A program made the position numbers and the translations under genes. This document shows positions 3,377-11,420 of a stretch of DNA of 12,777 nt, in pieces. Position 1 is the first letter of the stretch. Each line of letters begins with the position of its first letter. Below the pieces are notes generated by a model that saw nothing but the letters and a program-made list of their open reading frames with translations, ran no database searches and had not been told where the DNA came from. The stretch is from Legionella genomosp. 1 (GTDB lineage: Bacteria; Pseudomonadota; Gammaproteobacteria; Legionellales; Legionellaceae): the NCBI GenBank assembly GCA_945901145.1, contig CAMDJY010000014.1, positions 1-12,777 of the forward strand. Direction: 5' to 3'.

Positions 3377-3945
3377 ACACAACAACTCAAGCAAGTTTGA
3401 TGGGGTTAGGCTTATTGATGCTGGCGTGCCTCAGCTGGTATGGCGCAAGCTCTTCGCCAACTGTTACAGTCAATACTGCACAATTAGCAGCTCTGCCTGA
3501 TCAACGCATCACGACACTTCAAGTACAACAATTTGATCAGGCAGGCAATCTATTACACCTGCTCAACACGCCATTGATGGAGCATATGCCTCTAAAAGAC
3601 ATCCACCTGCTCTATCAACCCATCATCAAAGTCACAGAACCAAATCAGCCTACTTGGGAAATCCGTGCAAGAGAAGCGACTGCAAAACAAGGTGCAAAAC
3701 AAATTACTTTTCTACATGACGTCTTGATTCATCAGCATGCTGACGCCAATCATAGTGCACAAACCATTCAAACCAACCAAATTGTTTATTTTCCTAAACA
3801 AAAACTCGCAACAACTGATCAAAAAATTATTTGGAACCAATCAAATCATCAAGTTGAAGCCATAGGCATGAATGCTTATATCAATGAACATCGCATCGAT
3901 TTATTAAATCAAGCTCGAGCAGTCTATGCGCCGATGCATGATTAA
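3373..3945 (+). CDS. lptC: LptC, LPS-export inner-membrane bitopic protein
   Basis: This 190-residue protein has one N-terminal membrane helix at about residues 8-25 (SLMGLGLLMLACLSWYG) followed by a periplasmic LptC/OstA-type domain, close to the usual family length. LptC receives LPS from LptB2FG and hands it to LptA. The sequence of this family is poorly conserved, so the call leans on the topology, on weak motifs such as LNTPLMEHMP and WEIRAREATAKQG, and above all on the order kdsC-lptC-lptA-lptB. Its start overlaps the kdsC stop by 4 bases and its end overlaps lptA. Confidence 0.92.
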   Translation: MNTTTQASLMGLGLLMLACLSWYGASSSPTVTVNTAQLAALPDQRITTLQVQQFDQAGNLLHLLNTPLMEHMPLKDIHLLYQPIIKVTEPNQPTWEIRAREATAKQGAKQITFLHDVLIHQHADANHSAQTIQTNQIVYFPKQKLATTDQKIIWNQSNHQVEAIGMNAYINEHRIDLLNQARAVYAPMHD

Positions 3946-4432
3946 ATGGCTATTCTGGATGATTATCAGTTGTTGCCCGATCGCATCACAGGCTTTAGAC
4001 AGCGACAAAACAGCAATCGTATACTTAAGCGCAGGTACAGCATCACTCAACCAAGAAACACATACAGGAACCTATAGCCATCAAGTGAGAGTCGACCAGG
4101 GGTCAACACACATTCGAGCGCACACTGCAAGTACCAGTGGCAACAATAAAAATCAGCTGGTCCATGCAATCATTCACGGCAACCAAAAACAACAAGCCCA
4201 TTTATGGACCACGCCTTCCCCAAACAAATTACCGATTCATGCGTATGCAGATCTGATTCACTATTATCCTTTAGAACATCGAGTAGAATTAATGGGTCAT
4301 GCGCGTATTATCCAAAATAAAAATTCTTTTTCAGCACCTAAGATATATTATGATACCGTCAAACAACAAGTCACGACAGAACAACAAGGATCGGAGCGGA
4401 CAGTGATTATTTATGACCAGAGTCAATCATGA
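3938..4432 (+). CDS. lptA: LptA, periplasmic LPS-transport bridge protein
   Basis: The product is about 164 residues. A signal peptide ([19 protein letters not shown], cleavage expected after SQA) leads into an OstA-like domain containing [10 protein letters not shown] and [24 protein letters not shown]. LptA oligomers form the beta-jellyroll bridge that carries LPS across the periplasm from LptC to LptD. The frame is also open from an ATG at 3926, which would add MRRC in front. I chose 3938 because it gives a cleaner signal peptide and overlaps lptC by only 8 bases, but neither start has a clear ribosome-binding site. The gene ends in an ATGA overlap with lptB. Confidence 0.92.
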
Positions 4433-5195: not shown

Positions 5196-6137
5196 ATGAA
5201 CTCTATGAATAATAACAATTTAACCCTTGAACTACTTAAAAATATCGTCACAGCAGCTGAAAAAAATCAAGATGGAAAAACAGCGAATTATATTCCTGAA
5301 CTTGCCAATGTCGACCCAAACATCACGGCCATTGCCGTCCAGCCCTTGAATGAGCAAGTGCTAATGTATAGCAATTCACCTCTAGATGCAGTCACCCTAC
5401 AAAGCACCGCAAAGATGATTCCCTTAATTGGTCTACTCGAAGAACGAGGGCCCGAAAAAGTCTTTGAATGGGTCAAAGTTGAACCGTCAGGCGATGAGTT
5501 TTCTTCGATTACACGCCTAGAGCAATTTGGTCCAAAGCCTTCAAATCCGATGCTTAATGCTGGGGCAATCACCCTATGTTCACAGATTCCTGGCGCAGGC
5601 GAACTTGCATTTGGTTGGCTGGAATCTTGGATCAAAATTTTGTTTAATCAAAAATTGCGGATTAATCCCATGGTATTTGCCTCAGAAAAAAGTACCGGGG
5701 ACAGAAACCGATCACTGGCTTACCTATTACATAGTCGCAAAAATCTGAATAAGCCGGTCACCGAAACCCTCGATCTTTATTTCACACTCTGCTCTTACGA
5801 AGCAACTTTAGATCAAATGCTGTATTTACCAACCCTATTAGCCAATGCCGGTCGAGACCCAAACACACAACAACAAATTATCAGCGAAGAGACTTGTAAA
5901 ATAACCTTGGCTATCATGGCAACTTGTGGTCTTTATGATGAAACTGGCACACATATGGTCAAAACAGGCTTGCCGGCAAAAAGTGGTGTTTCTGGATACA
6001 CCATTGCGACCGCACCTGGAAAAGCTGGCATTGCGGTATTAAGCCCGCGAGTCAATACCAAAGGCAACAGTATTCGCGGTGAGATTATGCTTGAAGCCCT
6101 CTCTAAGGCGACACAATGGCATTTTGCGATTCCTTAA
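5196..6137 (+). CDS. glsA: Glutaminase (serine-dependent beta-lactamase fold)
   Basis: This 313-residue cytoplasmic enzyme hydrolyses L-glutamine to L-glutamate and ammonia. The family's active-site residues can be placed: Ser70-x-x-Lys73 (LQSTAK), Asn121 in SNPMLNAGAI, Glu164 and Asn171 in SEKSTGDRNRSLAY, Tyr201 in CSYEATLDQML, Tyr247 in GLYDETG, and Ser263 in GLPAKSGVSG. The length fits the single-domain bacterial enzymes. A start at 5205 (fourth codon) is equally possible, since neither ATG has a Shine-Dalgarno. The gene follows lptB and precedes sdaA on the same strand, but probably has its own promoter. The family can contribute to acid tolerance through ammonia release; that role here is inference. 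Confidence 0.94.
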   Translation: MNSMNNNNLTLELLKNIVTAAEKNQDGKTANYIPELANVDPNITAIAVQPLNEQVLMYSNSPLDAVTLQSTAKMIPLIGLLEERGPEKVFEWVKVEPSGDEFSSITRLEQFGPKPSNPMLNAGAITLCSQIPGAGELAFGWLESWIKILFNQKLRINPMVFASEKSTGDRNRSLAYLLHSRKNLNKPVTETLDLYFTLCSYEATLDQMLYLPTLLANAGRDPNTQQQIISEETCKITLAIMATCGLYDETGTHMVKTGLPAKSGVSGYTIATAPGKAGIAVLSPRVNTKGNSIRGEIMLEALSKATQWHFAIP

Positions 6138-6212: not shown

Positions 6213-7589
6213 ATGAGCATAAGCCTATTTGATCTGTTTTCGATTGGCATTGGTCCTTCAAGTTCTCACACCGTCGGCCCGATGCTTGCTGCTCATGCCT
6301 TCTTAGAGAAATTAGAACATAGTCGTTTTTTTGACAAAACAGAACGTATCAAAATCGAGGTCTACGGTTCTCTTGCTTTAACTGGCAAAGGACATGCCAC
6401 AGATAAAGCATTGTTAAACGGCCTCGAAGGGCAATTACCTGAGACGGTACGTCCTGAAACCATGACCCCGCGAACCTTAGAAATTATCGAAACACAAACC
6501 ATCTGCTTAGGTGGCAAAAAAAATATTCCTTTTCATGAAACCCGGGATTTGGTTTTTTTACAAAAAGAATTACTGCCTAAACACACCAATGGCATGCGTT
6601 TTACTGCGTTTAATGGCATTTCTGAGCCTTTAATGAGCGATGTCTATTATTCAATTGGCGGTGGCTTTATTCTCACTGAAGACGAATTTTCTGAACCAGA
6701 ACCAACGACGCAAACCCTGCCCTATCCTTTTGATACCGCCGCAGATATTCTGAGACTTTGTAAACAAAACAACTTCACGATTGCCGAACTCATGTTACAA
6801 AATGAATTAACTTGGCGCAGTTTACCTGAAATTCACGAGGGCATATTAAATTTAGCCCGGGTAATGAATACCTGTATTGATAACGGTTGTAAACACGAGG
6901 GGATCTTGCCGGGTGGCTTAAACGTCAAACGGCGCGCGCCTGATCTTTTCAAAAAATTAAACGATCAACAAGGTGTTTGTAGTATCTATGAAAATGCCGA
7001 TGTGATGAATCGCTTAAATCTTTATGCCATGGCAGTCAATGAAGAAAATGCGGCCGGAGGACGGATTGTCACTGCCCCCACCAATGGTGCTGCAGGCATT
7101 ATCCCAGCTGTACTCCGGTATGCGCATGATGCACATCATAAACATCAACATCAAGATATTTTTACTTATTTTCTAACAGCTGCTGCCATCGGGATTTTAT
7201 ATAAAAAAGGCGCGTCTATTTCTGGTGCTGAAGTGGGCTGCCAAGGAGAAGTCGGTGTTGCCTCTTCCATGGCGGCAGCGGGCTTAACCGCCATGCTTGG
7301 CGGTAACATCGAGCAAATTGAAAACGCAGCAGAAATTGCCATGGAGCATCATTTAGGCATGACCTGTGACCCAGTCATGGGCTTAGTGCAAATTCCTTGT
7401 ATTGAACGCAACGCCATGGGCTCAGTCAAAGCCGTAAATGCCTGCCGGATGGCACTGATTGGCGACGGTCAACATCATATTTCCTTAGATAAAGTCATTC
7501 GCACCATGAAACAAACAGGCCAAGACATGCAAAGCATCTATAAAGAAACCTCACTCGGAGGCTTGGCTGTGAATTTGGTTGAGTGTTAA
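6213..7589 (+). CDS. sdaA: L-serine dehydratase, single-chain iron-sulfur type
   Basis: This 458-residue enzyme deaminates L-serine to pyruvate and ammonia using a [4Fe-4S] cluster instead of pyridoxal phosphate. The beta-like N-terminal domain begins [20 protein letters not shown] (2-21). The alpha-like catalytic domain carries [15 protein letters not shown] (287-301), [20 protein letters not shown] and [20 protein letters not shown]. The cluster cysteines are Cys343, Cys385 and Cys396, and the chain ends in Cys458. From memory, these positions and the length equal those described for the Legionella pneumophila enzyme, where the C-terminal cysteine enters the active site. The last 11 codons and the stop lie inside a 52-bp direct repeat whose second copy is 1.7 kb downstream. 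The enzyme appears intact. Confidence 0.97.
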
Positions 7590-7606
7590 TTGTTTTTTAA
7601 TACTCT
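7555..7606. repeat. 52-bp direct repeat, copy 1 (sdaA 3' end), putative attachment site
   Basis: This segment matches 9292-9343 at 50 of 52 bases, with differences at 7568 and 7571. It holds the last codons of sdaA, the stop, and 17 bases beyond. Past 7606 the similarity fades after a further ten bases if a one-base gap is allowed. The two copies enclose the AbiE block and look like the left and right ends of an insertion into the 3' end of sdaA. Confidence 0.85.
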
Positions 7607-7628
7607 ATTACAATGATGAAAAGTAAAA

Positions 7629-8558
7629 TTAAATCTGAAATTCACCGTCTTTTGTCTCGCCATCAACAATCATTTTTAACTCGGATAATAGTAGTTTGGT
7701 TTCATTAATTAAAAAAACTTTAAATTTTTCCTTTTTCAACGTCCTTTCTTGAATATCCAATGGAATAAAACGTGACAGTTCATCATGAAAGCGGTCACTG
7801 TGGATGATTTCATCCATGCTCATAATCATTTTCCCAAGCTTTGTTAGATAATCAGTAATTTTATAATCATGAATTTTGGATAAAATGAACTTTTTATCTA
7901 TCGTCGCTCCGCGCTGTTTTAACCAACGCAAATCCCAAATGTCCCGATGGCGCACATACCGGGTTGTATTGACCAAGGAGACTAATTTGTCAGCCATAAT
8001 TTCATTCAGGCTTTCCGTCATGATAAGAACATCGCTGTAACCGTCAGGTAAAAAATCATAATTAGCATTTAAAGCCTGAGGTGTTCTTGTATAAGCAGGA
8101 ATATTGCACACTTCAATTTTAATTTTTTGCCTGGGTAAGTCTTTTCGTGTGGGGAATGTTGTAATGGCAATTTGCCATTTATCAACTTTAATGTCTTGAT
8201 ATTTTGGTTCGACGAACATCTCTGAAGGTTCTTTTACTGTAACCTCTAATCCATATCTAGATGCAATATAATTTTCAATACATTCTTTCATGTCCATTAA
8301 CTGCGATGTTGTAAAATCATAACCCCCTGCAAAATCAAGGTCCTCACTAAATCGTGAAGAACCGTAACATAAACGAAGAGATGTGCCCCCTTGAAAAGTT
8401 AATTTATCTAATAATCCCTGTTTATCAAGCACAAAAAGCAAATCATAGTGTAATAATTCTTTTTCGATCACGGGCCTCATATGAGAATAGCCTTCCTCTC
8501 TCATTGCGAGCTCTACTAGCATATTAAAGTCTTCCTGGTTTGAGGTTAGTTTTATCAT
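7629..8558 (-). CDS. abiEii: AbiEii-family nucleotidyltransferase toxin
   Basis: This 309-residue protein has the DNA-polymerase-beta-like nucleotidyltransferase motifs of AbiEii toxins: motif I GGTS (57-60) with SEDLDF (71-76, metal-binding Asp73 and Asp75), motif II KIKIEV (145-150), motif III IMADKLVSL (187-195) with Asp190 and Lys191, and motif IV RHRDIWDL (203-210). Family members act as bacteriostatic toxins and as phage-abortive-infection effectors; related MenT enzymes add nucleotides to tRNA. The active site appears complete. Its ATG overlaps the abiEi stop (ATGA), with GGAAG 8 bases upstream, so the two are co-translated, antitoxin first. It ends 39 bases from the sdaA stop in convergent orientation with no terminator hairpin between them. 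Confidence 0.9.
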   Translation of the reverse strand: MIKLTSNQEDFNMLVELAMREEGYSHMRPVIEKELLHYDLLFVLDKQGLLDKLTFQGGTSLRLCYGSSRFSEDLDFAGGYDFTTSQLMDMKECIENYIASRYGLEVTVKEPSEMFVEPKYQDIKVDKWQIAITTFPTRKDLPRQKIKIEVCNIPAYTRTPQALNANYDFLPDGYSDVLIMTESLNEIMADKLVSLVNTTRYVRHRDIWDLRWLKQRGATIDKKFILSKIHDYKITDYLTKLGKMIMSMDEIIHSDRFHDELSRFIPLDIQERTLKKEKFKVFLINETKLLLSELKMIVDGETKDGEFQI

Positions 8559-9088
8559 GCTAATTCTTCCGGATTAATTAGATTCATGTTACGGCCAACT
8601 CGCTTTAGATCTCGCAAAGCTGTTTCTTTTGAGGCTATTCTAAGTGGTCGTTCATTAACTTTAGAAGTACTCTCGAGAATGTCTTTTACTGTGCGCTTGG
8701 TATGTGTAAACTCAATAACGCCATAGGTAGTGTTATAGACGCCTTTGCGGCCGGTTGTCATAATGGTAATTCTATCAATGAGGATTTGTGAGATAACCCC
8801 GTATTCTGACAACATGGATTCGAGACTGACATAACTGTAATAACCTCGCCGAAGTGTTTTAGCAATACGTTCGATTGTATAACTATCCAATTCCCTGGAC
8901 TCTGCATTGACATATATATTCCGGCAAACATGTTGAATTACTCCTGATTTTACCAAGCGTTTCAGCCCTTCATTGAAGGTTTTATAAGAGTCTTGTGGAA
9001 AAAGCTTACGTAGATCGTGATTAGAAAAGACATATTTGTTTTTTCTTTCTTCCTCTCTAAATATCTTAATGGCTTGTTCTCTGTTCAT
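8555..9088 (-). CDS. abiEi: AbiEi-family antitoxin, winged-helix transcriptional repressor
   Basis: This 177-residue protein has an N-terminal winged-helix region (about 1-62) and a C-terminal antitoxin domain ending in SKETALRDLKRVGRNMNLINPEELA. The segment GLKRLVKSGVIQHVCRNIYVN (about 41-61) resembles the recognition helix and wing of AbiEi/COG5340-type proteins. AbiEi proteins neutralise AbiEii and repress their own operon by binding inverted repeats at the promoter. The identification rests on the N-terminal fold and on tight coupling to an unmistakable AbiEii. The ribosome-binding site is weak (TAGG about 11 bases upstream). Confidence 0.87.
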   Translation of the reverse strand: MNREQAIKIFREEERKNKYVFSNHDLRKLFPQDSYKTFNEGLKRLVKSGVIQHVCRNIYVNAESRELDSYTIERIAKTLRRGYYSYVSLESMLSEYGVISQILIDRITIMTTGRKGVYNTTYGVIEFTHTKRTVKDILESTSKVNERPLRIASKETALRDLKRVGRNMNLINPEELA

Positions 9089-9114
9089 ATATGAATTGCC
9101 TATAAGTGAGCGCC

Positions 9115-9154
9115 TATACCATATTATAATAGTATAATTGTCTACTTAAATCAA
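9115..9154 (-). promoter_or_regulatory. Candidate abiE promoter with dyad operator
   Basis: On the minus strand TTGATT (9154-9149) and TATTAT (9131-9126) are 17 bases apart, with a start near 9119 and a leader of about 30 bases. An imperfect dyad with outer arms TATAC and GTATA spans 9115-9136 and covers the -10, which fits autorepression by AbiEi. The -35 overlaps the stop codon of the short upstream frame. Confidence 0.5.
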
Positions 9155-9292
9155 TCGCGACTGAATGATCTGCTTTATATGAAATTGTTCGAATATGCCA
9201 ATCTCAATGAGCCCATTTAAGGCCGTTTCGATGTTTTCCCTAACATCTTCCCTGAGATGTTCTGATCCCTGTAATTCCTTAAAAAAACGCAT
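9146..9292 (-). pseudogene. 48-codon open frame cut at the repeat boundary; probable gene remnant or small ORF
   Basis: A minus-strand frame of 48 codons begins MRFFKELQGSEHLREDVREN and continues IETALNGLIEIGIFEQFHIK to a TAA at 9146. It reads like a real, mostly helical protein and not like random frame. I do not recognise the family. Its ATG falls on the first three bases at the edge of the 52-bp repeat. Upstream the frame continues for only ten codons through the repeat before a stop, with no ribosome-binding site. The best explanation is the C-terminal tail of a gene truncated where the cassette joins the sdaA end. A genuine small gene preceding abiEi is the alternative. Confidence 0.4.
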
Positions 9293-9343
9293 CGGAGGCT
9301 TGGCCGTTAATTTGGTTGAGTGTTAATTGTTTTTTAATACTCT
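9292..9343. repeat. 52-bp direct repeat, copy 2 (displaced sdaA 3' end), putative attachment site
   Basis: This copy is 50/52 identical to 7555-7606. On the plus strand it still encodes [10 protein letters not shown] followed by TAA, exactly the end of SdaA; its two differences (GCC for GCT, GTT for GTG) are synonymous. On the minus strand its right part encodes the last residues (VLKNN) and stop of the XRE antitoxin gene. The two stops share TTAA at 9323-9326. Confidence 0.85.
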
Positions 9344-9682
9344 CATCACAGCCGAAGGCATTAAATCAATGACTTTAAGAAAGTTCCTAGTCATTGTATT
9401 TGGTGTCCGTCGATGTTGCTCCCATTCCTGAATCGTTCTCACACTTACCCCAAAATAGTGAGCAAACTGTTCTTGAGTTAAATTTAATTTTTGACGAATT
9501 AATTTCACATCTGCTTCCTGAGTAGGATTAACACGTTTGAACTGTTTTAATTCCTCGTTCGTTAGAGGAGGTGCATCTAGATCCGCAATTGCTGCCGCAT
9601 GAATATTCTCCTCAGTCAATAAATTAACTGCATCCCAATTTGTTTTTCCCACTTTTTTAGTTAAAATATGCTTCGCGTTCAT
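9323..9682 (-). CDS. XRE-type antitoxin with a BrnA-like N-terminus, partner of BrnT
   Basis: This 119-residue protein probably neutralises and autoregulates the adjacent BrnT toxin. Residues 12-47 (GKTNWDAVNLLTEENI, then DAPPLTNEEL) resemble the toxin-binding half of BrnA antitoxins. Instead of the ribbon-helix-helix domain usual for BrnA, residues 58-110 form an XRE/HigA-like helix-turn-helix with LTQEQFAHYFGVSVRTIQEW. The start overlaps brnT by 26 bases and has a strong GGAGG (9697-9693) ten bases upstream, unlike brnT itself. The stop codon and last residues lie in copy 2 of the direct repeat, yet the C-terminus (FLKVIDLMPSAVMRVLKNN) looks complete for the family. Confidence 0.85.
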   Translation of the reverse strand: MNAKHILTKKVGKTNWDAVNLLTEENIHAAAIADLDAPPLTNEELKQFKRVNPTQEADVKLIRQKLNLTQEQFAHYFGVSVRTIQEWEQHRRTPNTMTRNFLKVIDLMPSAVMRVLKNN

Positions 9683-9920
9683 TTTTACTTGCCCTCCTCG
9701 CGGAAATGAGTCTCACGGTTCCAGCTCTGTATGTATAAACAACCAAGAGCACAACATCATTGACAGATCCTATCGTTTGATACCTTAACTCATCGCCCCT
9801 TTTACTTTCAGCCTCAATACGACTCAAATCTGCAAATATCTCTATCACATCAACAAAATCAATTTCATGCTTTTCTAAATTAAGCGCCCTCTTATTTTCG
9901 TCCCATTCAAATTTGTTCAT
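9657..9920 (-). CDS. brnT: BrnT-family ribonuclease toxin
   Basis: This 87-residue protein has the BrnT pattern: FEWDENKRALNLEKHEIDF (4-22) at the N-terminus, GDELRYQTIGSVNDVVLLVVYT in the middle, and RLISARRASKNEREAYF (70-86) at the end. BrnT is a RelE-like ribonuclease that inhibits translation; the arginines and the ISARRA segment contribute to its active site and fold. The usual order (toxin first, antitoxin second, overlapping) is kept. The leader is a run of T with no Shine-Dalgarno, so initiation may be weak and the coupled antitoxin better translated. No truncation is seen. Confidence 0.9.
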   Translation of the reverse strand: MNKFEWDENKRALNLEKHEIDFVDVIEIFADLSRIEAESKRGDELRYQTIGSVNDVVLLVVYTYRAGTVRLISARRASKNEREAYFN

Positions 9921-10027: not shown

Positions 10028-11158
10028 TTATTGCCAAGGAGGGTGTTGGAAATAGTCAATAGGATTAGTAACGCGAATCCCTTTCACATCAAAAGAGCGC
10101 TTTAAATCACCTACAATTTGCACCGTATTCTGCGGTGTTAATTTATCGCGAAAATATTTGAGTGCAGTAGAGGGTTCATCATCGGATAATTTTACTTCAA
10201 TCAAATCAATAATTTTTTTATCAATCACCGTAACAAAATCGACCTCACGTCCATCACGATCGCGAATATAATGTAGTTGGCATTGCTCACCAAAATAATC
10301 TTCACGAAATTGTAATCGTTTTAATAAATGTGTTGCGACCAAATTTTCTAATCGAGCTGATTTGTCATTGATACAATCTGCATTATCGTAAAAATAGACT
10401 TTTGGTGCTTTTTGTACAGCACGCACTATTTTCTTAGTATAAGGTGTAATCGAAAAAGCAAGGTACATGCGCTCAATTAATGCTAACCATTTTTTCACGG
10501 TGTGAGGCGAGATCTGCAAATCATTTGCAATATTCGAATAAGTAATCAAACCGCCAACACGCTCGCGCAAGGAATCAATCATCAAATCTAACAATGACAA
10601 TTCTTGAATACGCTCTAAATCTCGAATGTCTTCTCGAAGAATACGACGAAATCGTTCACTACGCCACCGTTTTGCTTCACGCTCATCATTGAGTAAAAAT
10701 GTTTCCGGAAAGCCACCAAGCGTTAATAGGCGATGATAGGCGTCTTCTTGACTGATATTGCTTGGCAGTTCATCCAAAGTGAATGGGTGCAATCGCCAAT
10801 AGTGATATCTTCCCAATAACGAATCACCACCCCGTTTATAGACATCTAATCGCGCCGAGCCTATTACCAGATATTGTTGCGCCATTGGTTTAAGATCATA
10901 CACTCCTTTGATCCATTGTTTCCATCGTACATACTTGTGTAATTCATCAAAAATAATCAGAGAAGTATCATTTAACCACTGTTTTTTTTGAATGACCTTT
11001 TTATGCTCATCACTATCCCAATTTAAATAAATTAGATCGGGAAAAGTTGTGATCAGATCTCGAGACAAAGTTGTTTTTCCAACTTGACGAGGCCCGCCAA
11101 TGAAAACCATTTTTTTTTGTAGGTCTTGAATAACATAAGGCGTAAGATAACGCTTCAT
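10028..11158 (-). CDS. AAA_14/DUF4143-type ATPase
   Basis: This 376-residue protein belongs to a widespread family of ATPases of unsettled function. An N-terminal AAA domain has Walker A GPRQVGKT (22-29), Walker B SLIIFDE (66-72) and GSARLDVYKRGGDSLLGRY (100-118), typical of AAA_14. A central helical part contains LGGFPE (147-152) and a winged-helix-like stretch (about 205-232, ITYSNIANDLQISPHTVKKW). The C-terminal DUF4143 domain includes YFYD (255-258) and a PD-(D/E)XK-like set, REVDF (304-308, Asp307) with IEVK (320-323, Glu321, Lys323). The length is full and no frameshift is visible. It sits alone between a toxin-antitoxin pair and pal, with only a weak ribosome-binding site. A role in defence or stability is conceivable but unproven. 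Confidence 0.88.
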   Translation of the reverse strand: MKRYLTPYVIQDLQKKMVFIGGPRQVGKTTLSRDLITTFPDLIYLNWDSDEHKKVIQKKQWLNDTSLIIFDELHKYVRWKQWIKGVYDLKPMAQQYLVIGSARLDVYKRGGDSLLGRYHYWRLHPFTLDELPSNISQEDAYHRLLTLGGFPETFLLNDEREAKRWRSERFRRILREDIRDLERIQELSLLDLMIDSLRERVGGLITYSNIANDLQISPHTVKKWLALIERMYLAFSITPYTKKIVRAVQKAPKVYFYDNADCINDKSARLENLVATHLLKRLQFREDYFGEQCQLHYIRDRDGREVDFVTVIDKKIIDLIEVKLSDDEPSTALKYFRDKLTPQNTVQIVGDLKRSFDVKGIRVTNPIDYFQHPPWQ

Positions 11159-11184
11159 ACGATGATCTCGTCAAAGAATAATTT

Positions 11185-11218
11185 TCGGCTAAAATGCACT
11201 TTAGTGCATTTTAGCCGA
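11185..11218. repeat. 34-bp near-perfect palindrome upstream of the ATPase gene
   Basis: The arms TCGGCTAAAATGCACT and AGTGCATTTTAGCCGA (16 bases each) are perfectly complementary around a central TT. The palindrome lies 26 bases upstream of the ATPase ATG. It has no adjoining T-run outside the stem on either strand, although the T-rich half of the stem could act as a poor terminator. It may be an operator or a leader hairpin for the ATPase gene, or a dispersed repeat unit. Confidence 0.7.
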
Positions 11219-11247
11219 TATGTCACGAGCATGAGACACTATTCTCT

Positions 11248-11367
11248 TTAGCTAGGTCCTTTGAAAACAGTCTGACCATCGCTCTCTTTGAGATCATTGA
11301 TGTCTTTTTTGATAGCGCAAAGCTGATAGTAGTCAAACCTTGAAAATACTTGTAGAATAAGTCCCCA
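11248..11367 (-). pseudogene. C-terminal remnant of an unrecognised gene
   Basis: A minus-strand frame of 39 codons with no usable ATG start ends at a TAA at 11248. It contains RFDYYQLCAIKKDINDLKES followed by DGQTVFKGPS, which has the composition of a genuine soluble protein tail. In the frame one step over, the sequence just upstream reads NGDLFYKYFQ, so a frameshift may separate two pieces of one gene. I cannot name the family. The fragment overlaps the proposed pal promoter. It suggests that a gene once preceding this point was cut away, perhaps when the island formed. The short length means chance cannot be excluded. Confidence 0.33.
11330..11358 (+). promoter_or_regulatory. Candidate pal promoter
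   Basis: TAGTCA (11330-11335) and TAGAAT (11353-11358) have a 17-base spacer and would start transcription near 11365. The leader contains a 10-base palindrome, CAGGGCCCTG (11376-11385), before the AAGGAG ribosome-binding site of pal. A dedicated promoter is expected here because no tolB precedes pal on this strand. Confidence 0.35.
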
Positions 11368-11420
11368 TTAGGGATCAGGGCCCTGTTTCGTTAATATTTA
11401 TTATTATAAAGGAGATTAGC

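Follow-up and report, generated by a model that had tools for sequence, protein, structure and literature searches.

Gene content of the locus

The DNA analyzed here (the window) is an entire contig (C14; CAMDJY010000014.1, 12,777 nucleotides) of a Legionella genomosp. 1 draft assembly that totals 1.45 Mb in 211 contigs with a completeness of 88%, the closest named relatives of which are Legionellaceae drafts. In it, a 52-bp direct repeat brackets AbiE, a predicted type IV toxin-antitoxin pair, and the structure and probable origin of this arrangement are examined below. Genes follow each other in the order glsA and sdaA (plus strand), abiEii, abiEi, brnA, brnT and an AAA_14/DUF4143 ATPase gene (minus strand), and pal and the next gene (plus strand). 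The label pal derives from the sequence of the gene, and brnA is named after its position behind brnT, no NCBIfam model being above cut-off for this brnA-like gene. Features are listed with their window coordinates.

6213–7589, plus: sdaA, L-serine ammonia-lyase, intact (TIGR00720, 665 bits against a cut-off of 345; SDH_alpha/SDH_beta); its final codons lie inside the left repeat copy
7555–7606, plus: left 52-bp repeat copy, comprising the end of sdaA and a remnant of the brnA 3' end (RVLKNN and stop, minus strand)
7586–7589, both strands: TTAA common to the overlapping stops of sdaA (plus) and of the brnA 3' end (minus); counterpart in the right copy at 9323–9326
7607–9291, no strand assigned: putatively inserted segment, 1685 bp, GC content 36% versus 44% for sdaA
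7628–9155, minus: AbiE unit common as DNA to other Legionellaceae (G008 90%, G006 89%, G112 86%)
7629–8558, minus: abiEii, predicted nucleotidyltransferase toxin of a type IV toxin-antitoxin system (PF08843, 106.9 bits versus 22.5; PADLOC AbiEii, 389 bits; no NCBIfam match)
8555–9088, minus: abiEi, predicted antitoxin (NF047376, 239 bits against a cut-off of 150; PADLOC AbiEi, 241.5 bits; in Pfam a sub-threshold HDNR match only)
9158–9291, no strand assigned: 134-bp piece foreign to the AbiE unit, holding most of a 48-amino-acid open stretch (9149–9292, minus)
9292–9343, plus: right repeat copy, comprising a remnant of the sdaA end, still readable with two synonymous differences, and the functional brnA 3' end
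9323–9682, minus: brnA-like helix-turn-helix antitoxin gene, intact (HTH_3; similar C-termini in relatives); its 3' end lies inside the right repeat copy
9657–9920, minus: brnT toxin gene (PF04365, 88 bits versus 34.5)
10028–11158, minus: AAA_14/DUF4143 ATPase, candidate defence protein (PADLOC PDC-S01)
11330–11420, plus: pal upstream region, with partial likeness to the genus sister G012 (29 bp at 97%)

A direct repeat brackets the AbiE genes

The segments 7555–7606 and 9292–9343 are identical at 50 of 52 positions and have a period of 1737, as a previous sequence-only reading of this DNA had proposed. The next-best pair of 52-mers in the window agrees at 33 of 52 positions (ungapped scan, all offsets of at least 53). 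The two mismatches are located at 7568/9305 and 7571/9308, and the longest exact run common to both copies spans 35 bp (7572–7606). Both edges of the repeat are sharp, gapped extension beyond them being matched or beaten by 29/200 and 72/200 shuffles. Also in agreement with the sequence-only reading, the repeat encloses abiEii, abiEi and one short open frame, the 48-amino-acid stretch on the minus strand. In the host draft genome only two copies occur, three further matches being just 14–24 bp long, so that the many dispersed copies that would have spoken against an insertion are not seen. A decayed longer duplication was considered and discarded, given that the repeat has no significant extension and that the 134-bp piece resembles sdaA, brnTA and the AAA_14 region no more than its shuffles do.

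The repeat combines the ends of two convergent genes

The repeat had been described as a duplicate of the sdaA 3' end. This holds for its first 35 bp, which correspond to the end of sdaA including the stop codon, plus part of the preceding codon, but not for its last 21 bp, which overlap the sdaA end in TTAA and are the 3' end of brnA: on the minus strand they read RVLKNN followed by a stop, that is, the six final brnA codons. Because the stops of both genes overlap in one TTAA, each copy holds the ends of both neighbors. The left copy supplies the functional end of sdaA and carries that of brnA as a remnant, and in the right copy the roles are swapped; both neighbors are intact, as each retains its full 3' end. 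The two mismatches occur at third codon positions and are synonymous in sdaA, the right copy keeping the same SdaA C-terminal reading. Such a pattern would be expected had the functional copy changed after the duplication.

From 170 BrnA relatives, 120 of which were listed, 19 were aligned for their C-termini. Two of these end in AVLRALKNN (P0002, P0009) and four in AVLRALKSN (P0003, P0004, P0007, P0017), while most of the others keep AVLRALK or a close form with differing last residues, and P0022, P0024 and P0027 end in AVLKALAA or AVLKALAD. The C-terminus of the window BrnA, AVMRVLKNN, is consistent with this pattern. Given the similar C-termini of these relatives, the brnA part of the repeat most likely represents native brnA codons and not sequence acquired from behind sdaA. 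Since this part is most likely native, the convergent sdaA/brnA junction probably predated AbiE. It is the composition of the repeat that gives the order of events.

Neighborhood of sdaA and pal

In the genus sisters sdaA is followed by other genes: yaiI in G038, tsaC in G052 and rpsU in G012 (names read from translations), whereas the contig of G060 ends at sdaA. Thus, the three sisters whose contigs extend beyond sdaA all lack brnA at this position, and the sdaA-brnA gene order was encountered in no genome searched other than that of the window. On the other side of the block, a pqiC-like gene directly precedes pal in three genus sisters, while in the host this gene is found on another contig. 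The pal upstream region is recognizable only from about 11330; the synteny break, at 11160–11420, separates the ATPase gene and pal and is ~2 kb from the AbiE insertion. Because the pqiC/pal junction that is intact in three sisters is broken here, the toxin-antitoxin block is located at a rearrangement point.

Structure of the putative AbiE insert

The abiEii and abiEi genes overlap by 4 bp and form one operon, as is characteristic of AbiE gene pairs. AbiE matches occur in 27 of 131 family genomes, and no AbiE relative was confirmed in viral contigs. Similarity of the AbiE unit to its relatives extends from the stop codon of abiEii to ~67 bp upstream of abiEi, and the unit of 7628–9155 is present in three genomes with other flanks. 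Four more Legionellaceae have AbiE DNA with 76–78% identity, three of them starting at 7676–7678. The earlier view of the AbiE block as a likely insertion that carries no integrase is supported: a two-copy repeat brackets it, and similar AbiE DNA is present between other flanks in other Legionellaceae.

As the unit has its own boundaries in the three otherwise-flanked genomes, the 134-bp piece is extra to it, and the insert is a composite of the AbiE unit and an unrelated 134-bp piece. Apart from itself, this piece had no match below an E-value of 0.1 in 143 family genomes, and neither plasmids nor phages matched it. The 48-amino-acid open stretch reaches Pfam DUF7709 at an E-value of 0.044 only; a search for DUF7709 across the family returned weak matches, all under the cut-off, and no convincing relative of the stretch was found in family genomes, plasmids, phages or Pfam. 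It is possibly the tail of a cut gene. At the opposite end of the insert, 7607–7627 may be foreign filler; the pseudogenised AbiE of G022 is similar to this stretch from 7611 onward, but the alignment is weak.

AbiE was also observed in a similar context in Vibrio parahaemolyticus and V. vulnificus records (L132, L133), the former with an extra 627-bp gene directly after abiEii.

Repeats around other AbiE loci

A second AbiE unit between tight direct repeats was found in G006, which belongs to another Legionellaceae genus. Its 1.5-kb AbiE unit, with 89% DNA identity to that of the window, lies between copies of a 37-bp repeat (36/37 identical) that differs wholly in sequence from the 52-bp repeat. 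The left copy ends directly next to the stop codon of abiEii, and the right one is located ~485 bp upstream of abiEi. This repeat has two copies only in its genome, the other matches being of 15 and 17 bp plus a neighboring hairpin. The AbiE units of G008 and G006 (loci L068 and L069, different genera) are 97% identical over 1616 bp, which suggests recent exchange between genera. In G008 no tight private repeat surrounds AbiE, its contig having just ~420 bp on one side.

The occurrence of repeats between the flanks of AbiE was surveyed in 21 loci, 8 from Legionellaceae (window included) and 13 from other Gammaproteobacteria. Fifteen family loci had been fetched, and those that are fragments or have less than ~40% identity (L050–L056) were left out; in L068, L073 and L117 less than 700 bp are available on one side, so that a repeat could be missed there. 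A repeat with a score of at least 30 was detected in 5 of the 21 loci, and among these five only the repeats of the window and of G006 are tight and private. Repeats of 74 bp in G501 and 123 bp in G388 were dropped as supporting cases, as further partial copies occur in the same loci, to which that search was confined. The 179-bp repeat of G090, 2.3 kb from abiEii, resembled the end of an island, its 3' motif being tRNA-like, but ARAGORN finds no tRNA in the locus.

In a cross-locus control, from which 20 pairs of related loci were excluded and which does not cover repeats dispersed within one genome, none of 400 pairs reached a score of 30 (maximum 25). A second control covers such dispersed repeats in part: Legionellaceae loci not selected for AbiE (273 kb, a few contigs being included twice) contain one repeat pair scoring at least 30 at 0.4–3 kb spacing, and 105 kb of Legionellaceae loci around AbiE contain two, that of G006 and a dispersed hairpin repeat in G008.

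Some of the repeats encountered deserve a separate description. The sole pair of the control set brackets BrnTA in L093 (896–980 and 1980–2060, 82% over ~82 bp), beside a DUF6088/AbiEi-like gene. The dispersed hairpin repeat of G008, ~50 bp long, occurs in L068 (6628–6677 and 8630–8679), L023 and L090. In L127, AbiE is flanked by a 123-bp hairpin-forming dispersed repeat (3902–4024 and 5548–5670), the copies of which seem to differ by paired stem changes. In L130 (NZ_CP132233.1, an Enterobacter hormaechei plasmid), AbiE lies between directly repeated 31-bp dif-like sequences, one ~195 bp past the end of the abiEii match and the other ~1.2 kb from the opposite end; the site in one copy agrees with a dif consensus at 23 of 27 informative positions. 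This is possibly a dif module outside Acinetobacter.

Search for attachment sites and recombinases

Site-specific integration into the sdaA 3' end, as had been suggested for this locus, finds no support in the composition of the repeat or in the other sdaA loci. The repeat does not lie within the 3' end of one conserved gene or RNA but spans the ends of two convergent genes, and a sdaA-specific attachment site is implausible because it would have to match the junction of two unrelated genes. The sdaA gene was detected in 130 genomes and the best 30 loci were fetched, one of them the window's own. Altogether, 33 sdaA loci from other genomes were considered (two contigs under two identifiers), and none of the 31 with at least 300 bp downstream contains a second copy of the 3' end there.

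With up to 3 mismatches allowed, the repeat core was found in 134 family genomes only as the two copies of the window plus one match in an unrelated long open frame, and the exact 25-base core had no match in viral contigs. Accordingly, no attachment site common to an integrase-bearing element was found in the host genome, 133 other family genomes or the viral contigs. Compared with a dif consensus, no 28-bp XerC/XerD site was found at the ends of the insert; the best candidate matches 15 of 27 informative positions, against a window maximum of 17, and was rejected. Six tyrosine-recombinase matches are present in the host genome, among them an apparently complete phage-type integrase gene. A recombinase may act in trans on the 52-bp repeat, a notion without support in that nothing ties the recombinases of the host to this sequence.

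Three consecutive tyrosine-recombinase-like genes (326, 536 and 678 amino acids, only the first over the Pfam cut-off) were noticed in G000:C126 (L149, L151, L153); we take them to resemble a recombinase-in-trio element.

Proposed origin of the AbiE block

The repeat of the window is made of the 3' ends of both neighbors, its edges are sharp, the insert is composite and both neighbors are intact. From this anatomy, we infer that the AbiE pair rather probably inserted into an already convergent sdaA/brnA junction, 52 bp of which were duplicated in the process. With moderate confidence, the locus is best explained by a type IV toxin-antitoxin pair that underwent insertion with long target duplication, and G006 provides a second, independent case. 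In keeping with such insertions, where the repeat measures tens to hundreds of bp, a 52-bp repeat (50/52) brackets the insert; it consists of target sequence private to the locus and is not part of the element, as it occurs in two copies and contains the ends of both genes. Also, repeat length and sequence vary for the same cargo, being 37 bp and unrelated in G006.

According to this scenario, sdaA and brnA would first have stood tail to tail, and the segment 7607–9291 would then have entered their junction with duplication of 52 bp of it and without the help of a dedicated recombinase. The event was probably an illegitimate join coupled to replication or repair, such as template switching or the filling-in of the ends of a staggered break, and would have captured the AbiE unit along with the unrelated 134-bp piece. 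Had the segment simply been inserted at one or the other repeat edge, the last codons of sdaA or of brnA would have been lost, and joins that duplicate the junction would for this reason be the expected survivors. Once in place, an addictive pair between direct repeats may select against its own loss by recombination of the repeats. The further reading, in which the addiction function keeps the duplication by penalizing its collapse, is tentative and somewhat improbable.

Several observations weigh against a target-duplicating insertion. No empty site was found, a sdaA/brnA junction devoid of AbiE being present in none of the relatives searched. Blastn similarity to brnA of G015 and G008 ends at 9363 and 9366, 20 bp before the repeat, and the native origin of the brnA part consequently rests on the protein ends; despite this stop, RxLK codons are readable in brnA of both genomes (AGAGTATTAAAA in the window, AGAGCACTAAAA in G015). 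A tight private repeat surrounds only 2 of the 8 Legionellaceae AbiE loci, window included, and, once dispersed repeats are excluded, none of the 13 loci from other Gammaproteobacteria. None of six AbiE loci from plasmid records, one of which (Proteus) is chromosome-sized at 4.1 Mb, has a flank repeat scoring at least 30, the best (22) being from Enterobacter; the Proteus AbiE had no DNA match in E. coli genomes. Around AbiE in other families, 116 kb contain 88 repeat pairs, and the 25 listed all derive from a repeat-rich region in L116; the low repeat background holds for Legionellaceae only. Lastly, the 52-bp repeat contains an imperfect inverted repeat (10-bp arms with 8/10 matches, 7-bp spacer) that is a potential recombinase core. 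However, of 2000 52-mers taken at random from the window, 137 contain an inverted repeat of at least 8/10, and hairpins are common where gene ends converge.

This inverted repeat (TGAGTGTTAA-TTGTTTT-TTAATACTCT), which lies at the right-hand end of the 52-bp sequence, would be the core of attL and attR if the 52 bp were the attachment sites of an integrase-type, cis-mobilizable cassette, whose integrase acts in trans or was lost. In line with this reading, a direct repeat coincides with the 3' end of a gene and encloses no integrase, the core ends exactly at the repeat edge, and the host has an apparently complete phage-type integrase besides other tyrosine-recombinase matches; according to passages of PMC5126054, AbiE occurs in an integrase-type island of an archaeon, which has 43-bp repeats and is located at a tRNA gene. 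We hold this reading to be unlikely, as the repeat spans the ends of two unrelated genes and an attachment site of this kind would need to derive from that very junction, the host draft has no further copy, 133 other family genomes have a single match, in an unrelated frame, viral contigs lack the exact 25-base core, the inverted repeat is of a quality seen in 137 of 2000 random 52-mers, and the repeat of G006 is unrelated in sequence. A quite unlikely origin is a single homologous crossover, in which a circle with AbiE and a copy of the sdaA/brnA junction from a sibling strain would have been integrated by RecA through the 52 bp. At 96% identity 52 bp can support recombination, given a threshold of ~30 bp mentioned in parts of PMC2884548, and two synonymous mismatches fit a copy from another strain. 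Nevertheless, the question is only moved back, since the circle must first gain the junction beside AbiE, and homology would be expected to extend beyond 52 bp, yet the edges are sharp.

As an assembly artefact, the draft contig could join two strain variants at the repeat; the window indeed makes up an entire contig of a fragmented assembly, which, like the named relatives, is probably metagenomic. The longest exact run is 35 bp, which is short for a final assembly k-mer. Also, the right copy is preceded by non-sdaA DNA, which misjoined sdaA alleles would not give, and the same anatomy recurs in another genome, G006; such an artefact is very unlikely. Two copies of a dispersed repeat might lie by chance on either side of AbiE, much as the repeats of G501 and G388, with their further partial copies in the same loci, appear to do. 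This candidate was rejected on the copy number of two in the host draft, and with both halves of the repeat being protein-coding it is extremely improbable.

Comparison with known systems

Insertion with long target duplication was reportedly described for restriction-modification systems by Nobusato et al. in 2000 and Furuta et al. in 2010. The review PMC3874152, which covers both restriction-modification and toxin-antitoxin systems, states that some of the former insert with long and variable target duplications (on the order of 100 bp) and that their movement is often tied to rearrangements. Both points are also made in passages of PMC3031569, and long target duplication is mentioned in portions of PMC1643837 and PMC3154945; the reference list of PMC2654758, which deals with toxin-antitoxin systems, includes the primary paper on long target duplication. 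For toxin-antitoxin systems themselves, no insertion of this kind was found in the literature searched, which leaves most subscription journals outside; the direct repeats referred to in the relevant part of PMC12242098 are those of CRISPR.

Among toxin-antitoxin systems, the nearest precedent found is an AAA-ATPase/subtilisin-like protease pair of mycoplasmas, which according to parts of PMC8562856 has flanking direct repeats regarded as scars of earlier recombination. As in the window, a toxin-antitoxin pair is bracketed by direct repeats; however, family and phylum are different, and in the passages concerned the repeats are not traced to genes of the target. Cis-mobilizable elements (CIMEs) and other integrative-element remnants likewise hold cargo between two direct repeats and have no integrase inside, but the repeat of the window is a chimera of two gene ends and matches no attachment site of an integrase-bearing element. 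The dif/pdif modules of Acinetobacter plasmids resemble the present case in that small toxin-antitoxin or resistance cassettes are moved in trans by host recombinases (XerC/XerD), and differ from it in that the repeat of the window is not dif-like. Capture of foreign DNA with odd junctions and without a dedicated recombinase is also known from homology-facilitated illegitimate recombination in naturally transformable bacteria (portions of PMC2884548), whereas the one-sided homology anchor of that process is not visible at the window locus.

Toxin-antitoxin pairs are widely acquired by horizontal transfer, many of them without a recombinase, and it is their route to chromosomal sites that is at issue. 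Private tight repeats around such pairs can be counted directly in strain collections with empty sites. The locus resembles the restriction-modification insertions in several respects: a small self-maintaining gene pair lacking its own recombinase, a private repeat that copies the target, measures tens of bp and varies in length between insertions, and a rearrangement nearby. The AbiE case differs in its cargo, a type IV toxin-antitoxin pair. If AbiE does insert as restriction-modification systems do, these two kinds of addiction modules would have a common mode of entry.

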